Source: Siphonodentalium dalli (lineage: Eukaryota; Mollusca; Scaphopoda; Gadilida; Siphonodentaliidae). Taken from it: 64,000 bases of DNA. The notes below the pieces were generated by a model, which worked only from the letters and a program-made list of their open reading frames with translations, had not been told where the DNA came from and did not search any database. The stretch is from NCBI GenBank assembly GCA_032622095.1, contig CP136069.1:155485043-155549042 (forward strand). The letters run 5' to 3'. This document shows positions 4,713 to 62,800 of this stretch, piece by piece. The position numbers and the translations under genes are program-made. Within the stretch, counting starts at the first letter, position 1; each line of letters opens with the position of its first letter.

Positions 4713-5419
4713 GTAGATTGGCAGATTCCAGTAGCTTTATAACGGTATATCTGGGGAGAAATCTGATGCTATATTCGTGATTATCTGGGATGATTTCGGT
4801 ATATACCGAAAACAAAGCGCGCCATCCGTGCTCGCAGGGAATAAATTTCGAGCGATAACGTTTGCGTAAATACGAAATTGTGAGTGTTGGTTTGTAACCG
4901 GGATTTCTGAGAAGCATTATGCCTATAACTACCCCCCCTAAGCCCTGACCTAAGTGTCATACATACTATAACAATGATGTTGTAAGAGCTCCAATAAATC
5001 TCCCCGCATAGGCAAGCACTCAATGTTCCCGTATATAACTCTGCAGATGCTAATAACGTTGAATGGGAAACAGACGCTCTTTATAGAGATGAGTCAAAAA
5101 CAAACGCTCATTAAATAATCACTTGATTAACCCCCGCCGTGCCTTTGCGGTGATTTTGAGAGTGGAGAACGCGTGCTATGAGCTTCTCCAAAACGCGCGA
5201 CGACGATTCCCGCGGGTTTTTACATTTAGATGGGAAGTTTGAACTCAATCGAGCGAACCGTTTTCGATTCTATGAAGTACATATATATATATATATATAC
5301 GAAGTCTCAAAATATATAGTACTAGCAGGTTAGCCCGCCACTGGCGGCATTCGTCCCATGGCTTTGGTCGATCCATTAATTTAAGTTTTTCAATGTAACC
5401 CCGTACAGGACAGGGCTAC

Positions 5420-5700
5420 TCAAAAACCAAATTTCAAGTCGATAGCTCCACCAGTTTCCGAGATCTGGTCTGCGCATGCGCGAATCTGGCGTCGCACGGG
5501 CTCGGCGACCCGATAAAATTCGTATCCGGGGCAAGATACATTCACATACCAAATTTCAAGTCGATCGCTCCACCCGTTTCCGATATCTCGTCTGCGCATG
5601 CGCTGCACGGGCGTCGCACGGGCTCGCCAATACGACAGCGACGACCACCTGGTCAAACTACACTCACGTACCAAGTTTCGTCCCGATCGGTCGAGGTGTT
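5420..5700 (+). repeat. second GC-rich 122-bp block
   Basis: Two units of the same family as 2592-2965, with gcgcatgcgc at 5472 and 5594 and the same 'ctggtcaaactacac' tail. Confidence 0.8.
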
Positions 5701-6515: not shown

Positions 6516-7365
6516 AGACTAGCCGATGAGCCCGACGTTGTCCGGGCTATTCAAAAAACAAATTTCAAGTCGATAGCTCTACCCAGCCCGACGTTGTCCG
6601 GGCTATTCAAAAACCAAATTTCAAGTCGATAGCTCTACCCGTTTCCGAGATCTGGTCTGCGCATGCGCGAAGCTGTCGTCGCACGGGCTCGGCGACCCGA
6701 TAAAATTCGTATCCGGGGCAATATACATTCACATACCAAATTTCAAGTCGATAGCTCCACCCGTTTCCGAGATCTCGTCTGCGCATGCGCGAAGCTAGCG
6801 TCGCACGGGCTCGGCGACCCGATAAAATTCGTATCCGGGGCAAGATACATTTACATACCAAATTTCAAGTCGATAGCTCCACCCGTTTCCGAGATATCGT
6901 CAATACGACAACGTCCACCGCCTGGTCAAACTACACACACGTCCAAGTTTGGTCCCGATCGGTGAATGTATCTTGCCCCGGATACGAATATTATCGGGTC
7001 GCCGAGCCCGTGCGACGCCAGCTTCGCGCATGCGCAGACCAGATCTCGGAAACGGGTGGAGCTATCGACTTGAAATTTGGTATGTGAATGTATCTTGCCC
7101 CGGGTACGAATTTTATCGGGTCGCCGAGCTCGTGCGACGCCAGCTTCGCACATGCGCAGACGAGATTTCGGAAACCGGTGGAGCTATCGACTTGAAATTT
7201 GGTATGTGAATGTATCTTGCCCCGGATACGAATTTTATCGGGTCGCCGAGCCCGTGCAACGCCAGCTTCGCGCATGCGCAGACCAGATCTCGGAAACGGT
7301 GGAGCTATCGACTTGAAATTTGGTTTTTGAATAGCCCGGACAACGTCGGGCTCATCGGCTAGTCT
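6516..7365. repeat. 0.85-kb palindrome of 122-bp units
   Basis: The outer ends agactagccgatgag (6516) and ctcatcggctagtct (to 7365) are exact complements. About three forward 122-bp units (gcgcatgcgcgaagct) run to about 6905 and are followed by about three inverted ones (agcttcgcgcatgcgc). Confidence 0.85.
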
Positions 7366-53800: not shown

Positions 53801-56800
53801 TGTATATTATTGATCGCAATAGAGATCTTTTTGCCATCTTGCAACAACCAGAACAGACACAGTTGAAACATGTTTATTTGGTTGTTACATATTAACCACA
53901 AGTTTAAGAAAAGTTTACCATAAAATGGCAGAATAAAGGCTCGGCCAACAATGCTTCACTGGATAGCTTGGCAGACGTTCAGACGTATACCCGGCGAAAC
54001 TACGTCACTAATGTAATCTCAAAACCGTTGCCTCAGATGTTCAGATACAGTAATGCTCTAAGTAATAGACTTCTTAACCACAGCATAATTATGGGTAACT
54101 TTTCAGGATTTAGTAGGAAATATGGCTTGTTGCCATTCATCTGAAAGCTATCGATGAGAGCTTTCCGATGAATGGCAACAAGCCATATTTCCGACTAAAT
54201 CCTGAAAAGTTACCCATAATTCTGCTGTGGTTAAGAGTTAAGAAGTTAGATATTTGTTACAGGAGTTATTGCAGTGAAAGGGATTATGCGTTTTATGTTC
54301 AACATTTGGGCACAAGCGATACTTATTTTCCTTGTAAATTTCTTTTATAAATATGATTGTTTAAACCGATTTTTGAATATGCATTGTGAACTTCCACAGC
54401 GCATGTACTAGTTTACCCCGTCAGCCAAACGTTTATATATGTGTTAAGCAAATTAGAATTCAAAACCTCTTTGGGTTAGAGACTTGATTCGTGACGAAGG
54501 TTCCTGGTCCCGATACATATTGCGTTCGTGCCACTCGAGGAGTTGGTCCGTTAGCGGCACAATTCACAGGCTCGTAGTGTGTATGTAGAGGAATATTGTC
54601 AGAACTAGCGCAACATCATTGATTACCTCAAATTGATCTTCCAATTTGGTTTTCTGCCCTGTGTGGTCGAAGTTGCACAACCCATCGAATACTTCCGGAT
54701 ATGCATCACAACTGGATGTCGTGTCCCCGCAGATCAGAGCTTCTAACAACACGTCATATACAAATATATACTGCTCCTGGAAAATAATGACACGAAATAT
54801 GCATCTACATACGGTTACTCTGAAACAAGATGCATTTCACAATATAATAGTATATTTGTTCTTTGCCATCTAGTCGTCACAGCGAGAGGCAACACGCACT
54901 GGCCACATCCCGTTGGTGTGGCGTCGTTTCTTATATAGTCCGTACTATAATAAACTCTAGCTTTATGTCGTATCCATTGTCTTCACCATCAAACATAACA
55001 ATAAATTGTGTAAGTTTTAACCGGTTATGCTAATGCATTGGAATCAAAATATTTAACCCATTCATGACGGGAGCTGCGCTGCTGCAGCATTAAAGATCAT
55101 GTGCCAGTGCATTATCTTATATATGCGAGTCTCCCATCATAGGGAGCCTCTCATATATGAAAGAATGCAATGGCTTACACGGTCAAGGTCAATATTATCA
55201 GGCCAATGCATTCTCTTATATATCCGAGGTTCACTATTGGAGACTCGCCTATATAAGAGAATGCATTGGCACATTGTTTTTGCAAAATTTCAGGAAGCTC
55301 CAGTCATGGAAGGTTTAATCAAATAGAAACACATCGGGATTGGACCCCGGCCATGATCTCGGTTCAGGTTTGGAGGAGGTTTACGATATTTTCCATCTTC
55401 AACTCTCCACATATGAACTATAGTAGAAGACAATAATGTCTAACGCTGGTAATTTTTGAACGGACTTCGTCGTTGTGACTTTGATATTAATTTTGATATT
55501 AATAAGTTTAATTTCTTCAAAATTTACTTTGCGAACAATATATGTCACTTTAAATAGCAGTGGCAACATCACAATTGCAAGTCGTCAACTCACCACTGTC
55601 TGCACCATGTTAACCCTCTGTTTCCGCATCTGTAGCACTTTATTATGTACATCGATTATCCCTTCATTCCGGGCTCGACACAACTCTGTATCGATGGCGA
55701 TATATGTTCCGGTCCTTCCAACACCAGCACTGAAACCGGAAAATGAAAGAATAATTGGTTCTGATATTAAATATTAAAATGATGGCGTTCTTCGGAACAA
55801 TATTGTGTGACACACATGGAAGTGGTTAGAGGGTGTCTGTTGCGGATGTCCAACTTGAAATTCCAACTGCACCCACATCGAACCAGTTAAAATTTACCCT
55901 CGCAGTAGTATAGTCTACCCTTTTGGGTAGATGGTTTGACTTGACTTTACTCAGCGCCTGATCCTGAGCTAACAGGGGTTACAGGTTACGAAGCGTGGGT
56001 GTATATGGGTGAAGGTTATCACGAGAATAGCGCCTTAATAACGCGGGTACGTCTAGGTCAAGGACAAACAAAATATTCCCGCAACAAGTCGGCTAAGGTT
56101 ATCACGAGAATAGCGCCTAATTATCGCGGGTACTAAACAATGCGTGTATATCTAAACGATATATCCCGCGCGTTAACCCTACCGCTTATCGCCTATTCAT
56201 GTAATATGAAAGAAAAAATGTACTCGGGTGACTGCTATCAGAGGTATATATTAATCACGAGAATAACTCGCCAGCGTCGCGCGCGGTAGCGATAAACCAG
56301 ATCGCGTGTACTATACACAGTGGTAGATAATATATGTACTGGTTTGAATGCCTAAACCCTAAGCGCCTAATCCTGAGCTATCAGGGTGGGATTATATGTC
56401 ACGCCGCGTGGGTGTATATGAGCGAATGTTATCACGATAATAACGCCTCATCATCGCGGGTACTAAACAATGCGTGTATATCTAAACGATATATCCCGCG
56501 CGTTAACCCTACCGCTTATCGCCTGCGTTTCCGATAAACGATATATCCCTCGCGTTAACCCGAGAGCTTATCGCCTATCAATGTAATATGAAATAAAATA
56601 GGGTGTGTGTACTAGGGATATAGGTTATCCGCAGTATTTGATCAAGGTATATATTAATACGCGGGTATATAATCGTAAGTGTTTGTTTTTTGTCACGGAA
56701 GTAAAAGCAGTATTGAAGACTTCCAATAGACTATATCTGAGAAATTTCTCATGCACAAATTCTATAGTTATAGTTATTATAATAGTGATTATTGTAAGCC

Positions 56801-59800
56801 TAATAAATCTGATAACAGGGATATACTAATGCACTCTACGGTCTGGCAATTCTTTCGCTGGTTCAACAAAGAAACCTCTTCAATATTTATCCGGCACCTC
56901 ATGGGGGGGGGGGGGGTGTTACTTCACCGAGAATCCCTATTACCACACCCAAATATTGATATAGTGGTATGTCTCCACCCACACCCCTATATGTATGTCC
57001 AAATACAATAAATGGAACCCAACACAAACAAATAAACAACTAATGTATCAACATTTGCTTTATTCGACACCAAGAATAACAGGTTTATTTCAGTTAATTA
57101 TCCATATTGTCATCGTCGTCATCTTGCTCAGAGTCTATATGTTTATCGTTTTTGTCCTTACTGTGTTTGCGATTAACCAATCTCTGTACTATAACAAGGA
57201 CCCCACCCAACGGAGAAATTGCCATTACTTGATTCTATTCAACAACCCCATAGATAAAATGCAGGTAATGACTCTAGCTCGTCAAATGTATCCAGAGAAA
57301 ACGCAACACTTTATGTCCCATATCAATAAAGCTACCAATCAACCATTTGGTTATCTCGTAGTTGACTAATACTCCAGAAAGTTTGCGACTGCGCAGTAAT
57401 ATAATGTTGACAAAGGCCAGTATAAAAGAAGAACGCATATTACCAAATAACAGTACTGTTGATGAGTCCGTCGAGGTGATAACGCATCAAACGAAAGATA
57501 ACCTCGGTGAAACGACATACCATAGGCTATTGTCAGAGCAGGAATACGACTCTGAAAGCGAAGACGGTATCATGCCAAGCTGTGGCGATTGTGGTGTCGT
57601 GTTTGAGACCCAGCATGATGTATAAAGGCACATAAAAAATTGGTGTTCTGATAGGAAGAAAAGAGAAGCAAGTGAAGAAGCACCGGTGAATAATAAAAAA
57701 ACAGAAAATTGACACAAAGAAAACAGAATCAATTCCGGACCAGGACAGACAAATATTAACACTTCCGACTGAAAAAGAAAACGACTATTTCGAAGATGTG
57801 TGGTTACAGGCCCTAGATGACAATAAAGCAGAATTAGATGAATTAGTTGAACGCTATATGAAGAAAGGGTTGACGGAAGAAGAGGCTGAAGAAAAATCAA
57901 ATGTGAAGATATGGCCCGAATATGAGAGGCGTTTTTTAAACATATACGCTGCATTTATACAAAATTTACTCGAAGTTAGTGGTGGGAAAACTCATATCAA
58001 AATCATGGATCGTGTGTATAAGATGCTAGATGATAGCTATGATATACTCCCTGCCGTTCGGATTTCTTTGAGGAGATATAAACCCCTCCTGATGGAGTAC
58101 ATGAAGAATAACAGTAAGGATAAAAACGATAAACATATAGACTCTGAGCAAGATGACGACGATGACAATATGGATAATTAACTGAAATAAACCTGTTATT
58201 CTTGGTGTCGAATAAAGCAAATGTTGATACATTAGTTGTTTATTTGTTTGTGTTGGGTTCCATTTATTGTATTTGGACATAAATATAGGGGTGTGGGTGG
58301 AGACATACCACTATATCAATATTTGGGTGTGGTAATAGGGATTCTCGGTGAAGTAACACCCCCCCCCCATGAGGTGCCGGATAAATATTGAAGAGGTTTC
58401 TTTGTTGAACCAGCGAAAGAATTGCCAGACCGTATAGTGCATTAGTATATCCCTGTTATCAGATTTATTAGGCTTACAATAATCACTATTATAATAACTA
58501 TAACTATAGAATTTGTGCGCGAGAAATTTCTCAGAAATAGTCTATTGGAAGTCTTCAATACTGCTTTTACTTCCGTGACAAAAAACAAATACTTACGATT
58601 ATATACCCGCGTATTAATATATACCTTGATCAAATACTGCGGACAACCTATATCCCTAGTACACACACCCTATTTTATTTCATATTACATTGATAGTCGA
58701 TAAGCTCTCGGGTTAACGCGAGGGATATATCGTTTATCGGAAACGCAGGCGATAAGCGGTAGGGTTAACGCGCGGGATATATCGTTTATATATACACGCA
58801 TTGTTTAGTACCCGCGATAACGAGGCGTTATTATCGTGATAACATTCGCCCATATACACCCACGCGGCGTGACATATAACCCCACCCTGATAGCTCAGGA
58901 TTAGGCGCTTAGGGTTTAGGCATTCAAACCAATACATATATTATCTACCACTGTGTATAGTACACGCGATCTGGTTTATCGCTACCGCGCGCGACGCTAG
59001 CGAGTTATTCTCGTGATTAATATATACCTCTGATAGCAGTCACCCGAGTACATTTTTCTTTCATATTACATGAATAGGCGATAAGCGGTAGGGTTAATGC
59101 GCGGGGTATATATATCGTTTAGATATACACGCATTGTTTAGTACCCGCGATAATTAGGCGCTATTCTCGTGATAACCTTAGCCGACTTGTTGCGGGAATA
59201 TTTTGTTTGTCCTTGACCTAGACGTACCCGCGTTATTAAGGCGCTATTCTCGTGATAACCTTCACCCATATACACCCACGCGTCGTGACCCGTAACCCCT
59301 GTTAGCTCAGGATCAGGCGCTGAGCAAAGTCAAGTCAAACCATCTACCCAAAGGGTAGACTATACTACTCCTCGCTCTTGGATTAGAATATGGTAGAACT
59401 TGTAGCCCATGCTGGCCAACTCTAGGCAATATCTAAACTGACAACCCCCCATAAGGTTGGAAATATTCCAAATGATGACAACTGCAGTCCATAACCCTTT
59501 TTTAATATAAAAACAACAAATATCACAATATAAAGACTGCTTGAAAAATCAAAACACGAGAACATTTTCAACCTATATTTTGCACACGTGAAAGTTCCAA
59601 CGCAGAAGCACGTTGGGTGAACGACATCCAAAACTCACATTACATACAATAACGCAGAACAAACGCATACACTCCGGGCAATGTGTCTACAAGAAACCGT
59701 AACGTCGTGGTCATTGTGTTTTTCTGAACTTCTTGTAGGACTTGTAGACACGATTCGTGTTTCTTGTAGACGCGATCATCGATTGATTGTGAGTTGTTCG

Positions 59801-62800
59801 CCTGGTGTCGGGAGAATAATACAAACATGTATATTAAGCTCCATTGGTTTGACGATCTGGAACGGCACAAAACGGAGCGGTGCTTGGATATCCATGGTAG
59901 TAAGTACGTATGAACTGCTTTGTGTTGTGGGCGTTGTTGAAACCAATGATAACTTAAAATAATGTAAATCTTCTGTCCAGAATATTGTAGTACATGAACA
60001 CTTACCTACAATGTATTATCACAGCACCATTGTCAAGGTTATCATATTGCCTTATTTTCTGGCGGAACAGCAGCAGAGAGTTACCGAACCTGGGAACGCC
60101 GTGGTCCGGCCAAGTCGTATAGTGAAACTGTTTTATATATTTGGATATATTATTCTGAAAAGGAAAATCAACAAAACGATGAGTCATTGTTAAAGGCCCA
60201 ATTAATTTTTGGTCCCCGATTATTTCTTTACAGCATCAATGTTATTGACTATTGTTGGCATGAAATAAAACCAAAAATACATATATTACATCACGATATA
60301 GAACAGCCGTGGCCTAGGAGTGTCCATTTAAAGGTCCACTTTATTTTCGAATGCCCATATCACATTATACACAACATATTCCATATTATATACCATTTGG
60401 AAGAGGAACGAAAAAATAATAATATATATTTACATACACCTAATGTCGCTTCCGATTTCCCCATAGCGTTACGGTAGACACGCCCCCTGATTCAATGTGT
60501 TCATAAACCTATAAACGTAAAGCTATAAACGTAAAGTGACGTCAGTTTCAATGTCGTTCATATGTTTATGAACACATTGATCCCGGAAATCACCAGAGAT
60601 TGTCGGACCAGAACGAGTGCTTGACTATTCAGCACGTCCGGATTTGGCAATCAATTTGTGTTGGTCTATAATCAGTGTTGTTTCCCTGCACCTATAAAAC
60701 TCATCTCCTCTGATTACACAACCCACGACCTCAGAAATATATCATTATGGTAGTACGGCGTGTTGTCAATTTCTTATCATCCACAACTGAAACTTAATTG
60801 TTAGTTTAAGATATTATCATTCTTGAAATCAACACGTCTACATTCATTACAAGCTAAACAAGACATTTCGTCATATGTGTATACTTTACTGTGAAATTGC
60901 GTTCTTCCGCTCTCCGTCAACGGATTCTCACAATGTTTGGTTTTCTAAAAGGCGAGGGTTCGAACTGTCCGAACTGAACTCGATGCATGTAAAGTTGAAT
61001 AAATAGTGGGAAACACAGACAATCCTAGTTGATAATGAATTTTTCGGCATCATCATCATTACTGAGCTGCATCCACATTGTTATCATAGTCGTCATATCT
61101 CCGTCGTCTACGTCACCATCGTCATCAGTCCATGACATCATAATTGCGTATACAGGTTGATATTCTCGCCTCAGCCTTGTCGATGTATAACCAGGGTTAC
61201 ACAGCTACTGGACTGGTGTGCCTTAAAAACTATATGAACCAGTAATGGAGATTATCTTCTAACTGTTCCCATTGATCGAGATGGAGATATATAGTTATCA
61301 TATCGCATTGTGACACATGTCATAATTATCGTTCCCACGGGTTCAACAATCCGTAATCGCCGATCAGAATAGAAAAACAGAGTCAGGATTACCGCGTTCT
61401 GAAGTATGGGATCTCGAAAAATCGATAGTATCACGAGATATAGCGTGAAGGATTACATTTCAACTCAGTGTGACAGAGACGTAGTAACAGTCGGATATGG
61501 GGTTGTCTTTCCCAAATGACGGTCCGTTTTTTATGGATACGCGTGGTTTGAGTGACAGTTAGATAGGAGTCACAATTATTTTTATATAAACATGATTCAC
61601 TAATGACCTATTACTTAGGTCTGAGTGTCTGATACGTAATTATATACTCTCCATTGTAGAATCATAGCTGCATTGAATTATAAGCAAGAACTCCCTGAAA
61701 ATGATTTCGTACGTTATACTGTACTGTATCACACCGTGGCTTTTATTTAGTGAAAACAATATTTTATTCTCAAGAACTTGCACATATAAAACATAATATA
61801 AAGACATACACACTTCAACATTAAAGAAAATGATTTGGCAGTAAGCCAAGGGCTCATCATTTATGTTCATCATTTATGTGGCCATTTCTTTGGTATATAT
61901 ATATATTGCATCATGTTTTGATTGCGTTTTAATGATGAATTACCTGTTCCACAAGCACCGCAAGATATCCCGTGCCCAATCACATCTCTGGCATGCATGA
62001 GTATACGAGATCACCATTTTGTATAGTCTTATGGTTCATAACCATATTATGTAAGTTAAATCGTTTAGAATCATCGATGGCTTTTGTTTACTAACAAGGC
62101 GTACGATCTTGACAATAACACGCTATTTATGTGATATTTATGACTGGTATAAGAACAAAACATGTCTATATTTTAATATTATTTCTGTTTATGGCGGTTT
62201 TAACGGGTTTAACCCTTTACCCAACAAAACGGCCAAAACCGACCAAATAAAGCTTCAACAGCCTAAAATATCTTCGGACTGTCTCAATAGAACCATACAA
62301 ATATGGATATCATTGGAACCGGCTCCTTGACCTCATTGTGATAGTTACAGTTATGCCCTGTGCCAATGCATTCTCTTATATATGCGAGTCGACCATAGGT
62401 CGCCTCGCATATATAAGAGAATGCATTGGCCTAAAAAAAATCTTTTTTTAACACTTTTTACCACTTTTTCTTACATTCTTTAACAATTTTATAATTTTTA
62501 ATGTGTTAAGCCAATGCATTCTCTTATATATGCGAGGCGACCTATGGTCGACTCGCATATATAAGAGAATGCATTGGCACAGGGCCCTTCTGTTAGGTAC
62601 AGGGTTAACTTATTTTAACAGCAATGCACACCGCGAAGGCCATCCGTATCTTTAAAAAGCTTTATACAGGCGATCGGGTGATATTATATAATGGAATGGT
62701 ATATAAGCATGAGATAAATATAGAGAATGGTCTGAAATACAGCATCAAACATGCATGATTGTGATATAGATAGCTAACATTCGCAAAAGAGAACAACCAT

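Follow-up and report, generated by a model that had tools for sequence, protein, structure and literature searches.

Introduction

Polintons, or Mavericks, are recognised by their AG...CT ends, long inverted repeats and 6-bp target-site duplications; whether they exist as living viruses in animals is debated, and particles are hard to find. In the accessible text of Krupovic et al. 2014 (PMC4028283) they are 15-20 kb long, their gene set is described and they are read as viruses. The subject here is a much smaller element with Polinton-type ends, which lies in a 64,000-nucleotide stretch of the scaphopod mollusc Siphonodentalium dalli (assembly GCA_032622095.1, contig CP136069.1, here C9:155485043-155549042); that whole stretch is called the window, and the element the window element. 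We consider it very likely that the window element is a dead copy, deleted at its centre, from a non-autonomous family of Polintons, B1, the fuller form of which is a helper-dependent, copy-back-type inverted duplication carrying the gene of a packaging ATPase, ATPase-B. Family B very probably depends on Polintons of the same genome to move. It would be a concrete and countable case in which giant, self-synthesising transposons yield small dependents by inverted duplication of an end, and not by simple internal deletion.

The accessible passages of PMC4028283 note that Tlr was once viewed as a derivative without autonomy, and those of a Hessian-fly survey (PMC8504770) give Maverick consensus sequences that contain deletions and are 600-4500 bp long, without describing their ends; the corresponding parts of PMC2871265, PMC6431247 and PMC2836005 hold nothing on small Polintons. 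In the accessible portion of the literature searched, which covered Polintons, small derivatives and adenovirus-type defective or fold-back genomes and had Repbase and most subscription papers outside its scope, no description of palindromic or packaging-gene-bearing non-autonomous Polintons was found.

The window element and its palindromic relatives

The window element occupies 55904-59369 (3466 bp), and an earlier note, made from the letters of the window alone, had seen its outline correctly: two 1.26-kb arms that are inverted copies (1261 and 1259 bp; identity 1234/1265, with 10 gap positions), termini AGT...ACT, and CCTCGC on either flank, the chance of a single 6-bp flank match being 1/4096. 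The end sequence is AGTAGTATAG... The element holds no intact gene, and the scrap of one core gene that the earlier note had reported is a 516-aa packaging ATPase from about residue 176 to its end, with frame changes and one stop. Its parts are as follows.

55898..55903, no strand: left target-site duplication CCTCGC, 6 bp
55904..57164, plus strand: left inverted arm, ending at the deletion junction
55904..56116, plus strand: outer terminal module of about 213 bp, common to family A Polintons (84-90% against A ends over 195-229 bp)
56092..56524, plus strand: internal arm repeat with 330-bp spacing, motif GTTATCACGAGAATAGCGCC and neighbours (repeat families D1-D3)
57094..57164, minus strand: final codons of ATPase-B, left-arm copy
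57162..57166, no strand: deletion junction with 2-bp GT microhomology, seen in this copy only
57163..58181, plus strand: ATPase-B remnant that starts at about residue 176 and keeps the gene's end, its frame changing and broken by a stop; includes the second C2H2 finger and the helical tail
58111..59369, minus strand: right inverted arm, of which 59157-59369 pairs with the left outer module
59370..59375, no strand: right target-site duplication CCTCGC, 6 bp

The genome (2.2 Gb in 9 contigs) was searched with the outer 197 bp, which returned at least 101 matches (best 40 of 451 candidates scored), and ten paired and four one-ended copies were retrieved for comparison and placed in groups A and B. 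Group A (L013/14, L017/18, L019/20, L021-23 and L024; 8.4-22.6 kb) consists of Polintons encoding, in all or some copies, an integrase (INT), a 225-aa A32-like ATPase with a weak Pfam score, a PC4-like protein and a deoxynucleoside kinase. Integrase-bearing Polintons of the same genome share the outer ~213 bp of the window element, so that the check on shared ends which the earlier note had asked for came out in its favour, and its description of Polinton-type ends on an element without enzyme genes of its own also stands. Group B comprises the window element, L009-L012, L015, L016 and L025-L028.

It is the B copies that suggest what the window element once resembled. In L015 (5.9 kb) the ATPase-B gene is present in both 2.66-kb arms, and the fuller B form is an inverted duplication of ~5.4-5.9 kb with arms of ~2.7-2.8 kb, terminal Polinton sequence on the outside and divergent ATPase-B genes inside. 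A genome search with ATPase-B gave at least 131 matches (best 121 of 4363 candidates scored; 123 positions used). Divergent pairs less than 3 kb apart number 21, plus one complex locus, among the 123 positions listed, and among the matches listed 24 cover the whole query, free of stops, and their open frames span 530 codons or more. Two of the palindromes, L029 and L030, belong to a second subfamily, B2: both are 5.67 kb long, they are 99.5% and 99.4% self-complementary and 98.7% identical to each other, and their sites differ, with AATGCA duplicated at the first and TATGAA (read by hand) at the second, so that the palindrome itself multiplied. Both arm frames are intact in L029, and one arm of L030 has a stop. 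Among B1 pairs with A-type ends are P13 (5573 bp, TACAAG), P14 (5399 bp, TATAGG) and P18 (5616 bp, GATATA), the lengths being obtained by subtraction; L012 and L016 display other unequal losses between arms. The B relative L009/L010 (C1:42986801-43003894) is of another size, 17.1 kb; its left end is damaged, and none of the Polinton enzymes queried turned up in its long interior.

The integrase, polymerase and capsid-like queries found no match in the window element and ten further B loci, and the polymerase, capsid-like and protease queries from family C, a third Polinton family of this genome, found none there either. In L029 and L030, searched with 32 protein queries, there was likewise no match to integrase, polymerase or capsid-like protein; besides ATPase-B itself, only other ATPase queries matched, together with 37 codons of o134, which is a frame close to one family A end. 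That piece is in both L029 arms (2090-2200 and 5554-5664, 73%) and its sequence may possibly be a trace of the genome end that gave rise to the arm. No listed integrase position (best 110 of 2650 candidates) falls within 25 kb of any of the 123 ATPase-B positions listed. When 40 A-type ends were examined, paired ends being counted twice, a listed integrase was within 25 kb of 16, ATPase-B of 14, neither of 10 and both of none; the 10 without either listed gene nearby include L028 and, with both their ends, the window element and the 17.1-kb copy.

Target-site duplications

The 6-bp duplication proposed for the window element recurs at other copies, which was the second point on which the earlier note had let its reading depend. 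Exact duplications, with a sequence that varies by site, were found at 21 of 27 loci examined, the window copy among them (9/11, 2/2, 6/10, 1/1 and 3/3 by batch), and they represent 20 distinct insertions, since L029 and P3 have the same flanks and duplication. Ten of these loci are further pairs whose ends were retrieved, with six exact duplications, one ambiguous case (P11) and three in which one end was outside the retrieved piece (P6, P7 and P9); these last four, the 17.1-kb copy with its damaged left end and a nested 8-kb copy are the six loci without a demonstrable duplication. P11 (L047/L048, C6:126.7 Mb) has ACCATGGT flanks on both sides in an inverted context, and may have landed in some other inverted repeat or have recombined with one. 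L029 (C5:130.15 Mb) and L031/L032 (C5:132.35 Mb) have the same 14 visible flanking bases on each side and the same duplication, so one palindrome looks to have been copied with host DNA, ~2.2 Mb apart.

Polintons of the same genome

Similarity between the window element and family A ends is 84-90% over 195-229 bp, and that of other B copies to A ends ranges from ~79% to 99.5% (L011, which has a nested A-type end, is omitted). The longest further matches of the window element to A, among the matches listed, are to the internal repeat of the outer module. These repeats are spaced by 330 bp in each arm (56092-56194 and 56422-56524 in the left), and by eye the A and B sequences part inside one and the same repeated motif, which may be where templates were switched. 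L028, a B copy, differs over its outer 213 bp by 1-2 bases from a family A end. Monophyly of B ends was rejected by the approximately unbiased (AU) test when L028 was included (p 0.016, whether or not the 8-kb ends were kept) and was not rejected when it was left out (p 0.13 and 0.15), so that the signal for terminal exchange between A and B rests on one copy.

The L029 ends are not of the family A type, and their match is found in a second Polinton family, A2, represented by the 14.1-kb L073/L074 (duplication TGGAGA): L029 ends are 96.3% identical to both A2 ends over 319-321 bp, and the L029 arm has further short matches to the interiors of A2 and A. The two pieces of the A2 integrase share 70-74% identity with the family A integrase; the A2 ATPase is 69% identical to that of A and ~32% to ATPase-B. 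With A-type ends on B1 and A2-type ends on L029, the ends found outside the ATPase-B module are thus those of two distinct Polinton families. A2 also has polymerase-like, capsid-like and protease-like frames, the protease with a Pfam score below cut-off and the others with no Pfam match.

Family C (L071/L072, C1:269742500-269762499) has an integrase ~37-40% identical to that of A, a 952-aa polymerase (PF03175 at 7.4e-52) and an ATPase that is again different. Its integrase has many full-frame matches with nearly equal scores, a sequence pattern that hints at recent activity of the family. Family A, too, has polymerase-like frames, and in both A and A2 these were recognised by motifs read by eye and by weak similarity to the family C polymerase; none of the polymerase-like pieces of A and A2 that were tried had a Pfam match. 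Family A also encodes a protein similar to the capsid-like protein of family C. The frames at L024:6930-8036, L073:6406-7797 and L072:1905-3167 we label as capsid proteins from their mutual similarity and from sequence features; they have no Pfam match. A chromodomain was seen in the integrases of L019 and L024. A different frame in L019, considered as an ATPase, was rejected when it matched finger-bearing frames beside the family A polymerase. The deoxynucleoside kinase (PF01712, 2.9e-55) and PC4-like genes of family A are at L018:4394-5068, L018:3166-3960, L014:554-1267 and L013:9326-9985, and neither gene is known as part of the usual Polinton set. The 22.6-kb family A copy contains a nested retrotransposon, seen as a Gypsy-type reverse transcriptase/integrase frame (L021:5452-8373).

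The ATPase-B gene

ATPase-B, as encoded in L029, has 516 aa. It starts with a C2H2 finger and a glutamine-rich stretch; an ATPase domain of the A32/IVa2 type follows, and after it come another C2H2 finger and a tail of helices. Where well covered, its identity to the ATPase of family A is ~33%. Its predicted fold (mean predicted local distance difference test score, pLDDT, of 77; predicted template modelling score, pTM, of 0.46) has its best PDB match in the packaging NTPase B204 of Sulfolobus turreted icosahedral virus (STIV; E 7.7e-7, TM 0.58 by target length), and in BFVD the model resembles viral packaging ATPases, including an adintovirus FtsK-like protein. The raw internal frames of the window element had given weak Pfam and PHROG matches, below cut-off or with E near 0.1; the idea that one of them encodes an unrelated helical protein was discarded, the frame being the ATPase-B tail.

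Protein relatives of ATPase-B number 240 at E <= 1e-5, and the named ones among 120 listed are mostly from bivalves. All 120 score higher against ATPase-B than against the ATPases of families A and C, partly by selection, ATPase-B being the query. Five gene models, three of Mya, one of Mytilus and one other, join an ATPase-B-type domain to integrase sequence, so that elsewhere this type of ATPase belongs to integrase-bearing Polintons.

For 35 pairs of a B1 with a B2 copy, the mean ratio of nonsynonymous to synonymous substitution rates (dN/dS) is 0.32, compared with 1.41 and 1.05 when the wrong frames are read, and in four single B1-B2 pairs it is 0.29-0.35, with bootstrap upper limits of 0.44-0.53. 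B2 copies among themselves give 0.44 (1.50 and 0.63 in the wrong frames). On these sequence comparisons ATPase-B was once under purifying selection, between B1 and B2.

Origin of the window copy

In all six copies with both arms, the two arms of one copy are sisters in the arm tree, and wherever the window arms differ in a base, one arm has a state absent from other copies, the exception being the length of a poly-G run. The arms were thus alike at insertion and diverged later, by 1.67% in the window copy (21/1255 compared bases). The left arm breaks off at ...CCTTACTGT, with TATTC following at this point in relatives, and what remains of the right arm starts GTTTGCG, before which relatives mostly have ATATCCGT; the join shares two bases, GT. 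Compared with a palindrome of 5.4-5.6 kb, ~2 kb would be missing from the centre, and unequally from the two arms. Asymmetric loss is known behaviour at the centres of long palindromes.

The earlier note had suggested that the element is a MITE-like rider, that is, similar to a miniature inverted-repeat transposable element (MITE). For the window copy this idea was dropped for lack of support: among the best 40 of 323 candidates only the window copy spans the junction, 39 of the 40 matching one side, and a junction seen once does not show that the shortened form multiplied. The idea persists in changed form for the palindromes, in that L029 and L030 share their whole structure at different sites.

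The host gene and its surroundings

The element was correctly placed by the earlier note in a phosphatase intron. The gene, a tyrosine phosphatase, is on the minus strand, with PF00102 matches on both sides of the element and an intron at 60005..55730 (minus strand), its splice sites read by eye.

60006..60154, minus strand: phosphatase exon upstream of the element, ending ...VIIHC + AG; borders read by eye
55610..55729, minus strand: phosphatase exon downstream, beginning with the rest of S and then AGVGRTG; borders read by eye, low end approximate

Read by eye, the intron interrupts the HC-SAGVGRTG signature, and splicing would rejoin the halves. Another PF00102 segment near 52.6 kb of the window suggests a second phosphatase domain. 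Elsewhere in the window, related ~122-bp tandem arrays, some mutually inverted as judged by eye, are found at 2593-2863, 5418-5679, 6605-6901 and 6962-7332.

A proposed route to the palindromes, and the alternatives

What the sequences show are the shared ends, the 6-bp duplications, the palindromic relatives, the arms that were alike at insertion, the central deletion seen once and the past constraint on the gene. The route that we favour would start when a protein-primed linear genome was by error replicated back on itself ("copy-back", or fold-back) at one of its ends, giving an inverted duplication of that end. Family A Polintons would then supply in trans a polymerase and an integrase that act on the shared terminal module, the helper integrase inserting the copy with a 6-bp duplication, as the observed ends and duplications suggest, and family A2 enzymes would likewise act on ends such as those of L029. 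The arms would be equalised in each round of replication and drift apart after insertion. The centre of the palindrome would finally have lost ~2 kb by joining at the 2-bp microhomology, the structure of which is visible, its timing and pathway being our reconstruction. ATPase-B itself would have a role in packaging. Inverted duplication also accounts for gene-bearing "terminal repeats" of varying length.

Several points weigh against this account. That helper enzymes act in trans is something we infer. With the best 121 of 4363 ATPase-B and 110 of 2650 integrase candidates scored, an integrase-bearing ATPase-B Polinton could be among the remainder, and the fusion of an ATPase-B-type domain to integrase in other animals means that the constraint may be older than the one-gene form. 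Among B1 copies dN/dS is 0.68, not distinct from one of the wrong frames (0.69 and 1.06), so that they look mostly unconstrained since they split. The gap between divergent gene starts differs, being 516 bp in P13 and 361 bp in P14 (the B1 pairs with wide gaps at C4:277172326-277174448 and C5:154271027-154273291, respectively) versus ~110-113 bp in two B2 pairs including L029; this hints at two fold-back events or a shifted centre, and a single founding fold-back is not assured. Lastly, the 17.1-kb L009/L010 departs from the ~5.6-kb size, and L025-L028 show one end only within 10 kb.

The earlier note had taken the element for an internally deleted 15-20-kb Polinton. Simple deletion of a full-length family A copy, leaving both ends and a core-gene scrap, would fit the outer ~213 bp held in common, the 6-bp duplication and the retained fragment of a packaging ATPase. 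However, the retained gene is not that of the Polintons with the same ends, given its ~33% identity to their ATPase; beyond the outer module and its repeat, no further match to the retrieved A pieces appears among the longest matches listed; and the relatives include one-gene palindromes that hold the gene in both arms. With a different ATPase and a similarity so confined, this explanation was rejected as improbable. The alternative with most in its favour is a further autonomous lineage in this genome, D, an integrase-bearing Polinton with ATPase-B, INT and pPolB between A-type ends, of which the window element would be a deletion product and the palindromes repeated by-products. The 240 ATPase-B-type proteins, those named mostly from bivalves, and the five gene models with integrase sequence speak for such a lineage, as does the scoring of only the best candidates in the two lists; yet no listed ATPase-B position has a listed integrase within 25 kb, the retrieved A and A2 copies that own the matching ends have other ATPases, and it is the whole palindrome that L029 and L030 have in common at 98.7%. 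We judge lineage D unlikely, if well short of negligible.

Two further explanations concern the palindromes as such. Long, internally repetitive inverted repeats of variable length are what a Foldback/Galileo-type element would have, its repeats grown by unequal exchange and mobilised by an unrelated transposase, but the 6-bp duplications, the AG...CT ends and the similarity to the ends of integrase-bearing Polintons make this very hard to believe. Near-perfect palindromes are also a known long-read artefact, and fold-back reads might have created them in the assembly, with the window element as a collapsed version; the exact ends and duplications at 20 distinct sites, the private changes in single arms and the divergent subfamilies leave this explanation with scarcely any credit.

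Comparison with known systems

Like Polintons, family B has a 6-bp duplication, long inverted repeats starting in AG, the ends of integrase-bearing copies in the same genome and an A32/FtsK-type packaging ATPase, full length in L029 and reduced in the window copy to a broken C-terminal part. Unlike them, the window copy is 3466 bp long and its fuller relatives ~5.6 kb, versus the 15-20 kb given in the accessible text of PMC4028283. A retrovirus-type integrase is present in families A, A2 and C, whereas the B copies are inverted duplications with one gene and no match to INT (chromodomain), pPolB, capsid or protease.

The palindromic incomplete genomes of adenoviruses are of the copy-back type. 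In snapback genomes of adeno-associated virus (AAV; PMC8235507), as in family B, one genome end is inversely duplicated with a nearby gene. Unlike such genomes, family B is integrated and has multiplied in its host genome with 6-bp duplications, and its duplicated gene shows past purifying selection. By its sequence, then, family B shares with copy-back genomes an inverted duplication of a genome end with a gene close to it; as regards helpers, what is seen is shared ends and no enzymes of its own. Foldback/Galileo elements (PMC3573991) resemble it in their long, internally repetitive inverted repeats and differ in their ends and partner enzymes. With MITEs and other non-autonomous DNA transposons it has in common the ends of an autonomous partner, the lack of a transposase gene and multiplied palindromic relatives; unlike MITEs, B is several kb long with a 516-aa gene on each arm, and its shortened window form was seen once.

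The phage satellites known as phage-inducible chromosomal islands (PICI) and P4 redirect the packaging of their helpers. Like them, family B seems to be small and dependent, with a packaging-type gene of its own (the conserved ATPase-B with its C2H2 fingers) and helper-type ends; unlike them, it resides in an animal genome, with integrase-type insertion. Family B might be a true polintovirus satellite, a palindromic one-gene element with the ends of its helpers A and A2, replicated and inserted by their enzymes, whose ATPase-B was selected to load its own DNA into helper particles, an analogy that we hold as possible and rather doubtful. If it were true, family B would be a eukaryotic counterpart of the phage satellites that hijack packaging, with helper and satellite exchanging terminal modules, as the end of L028 might illustrate. 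Dependents that keep only a packaging gene would indirectly indicate that packaging matters to Polintons.

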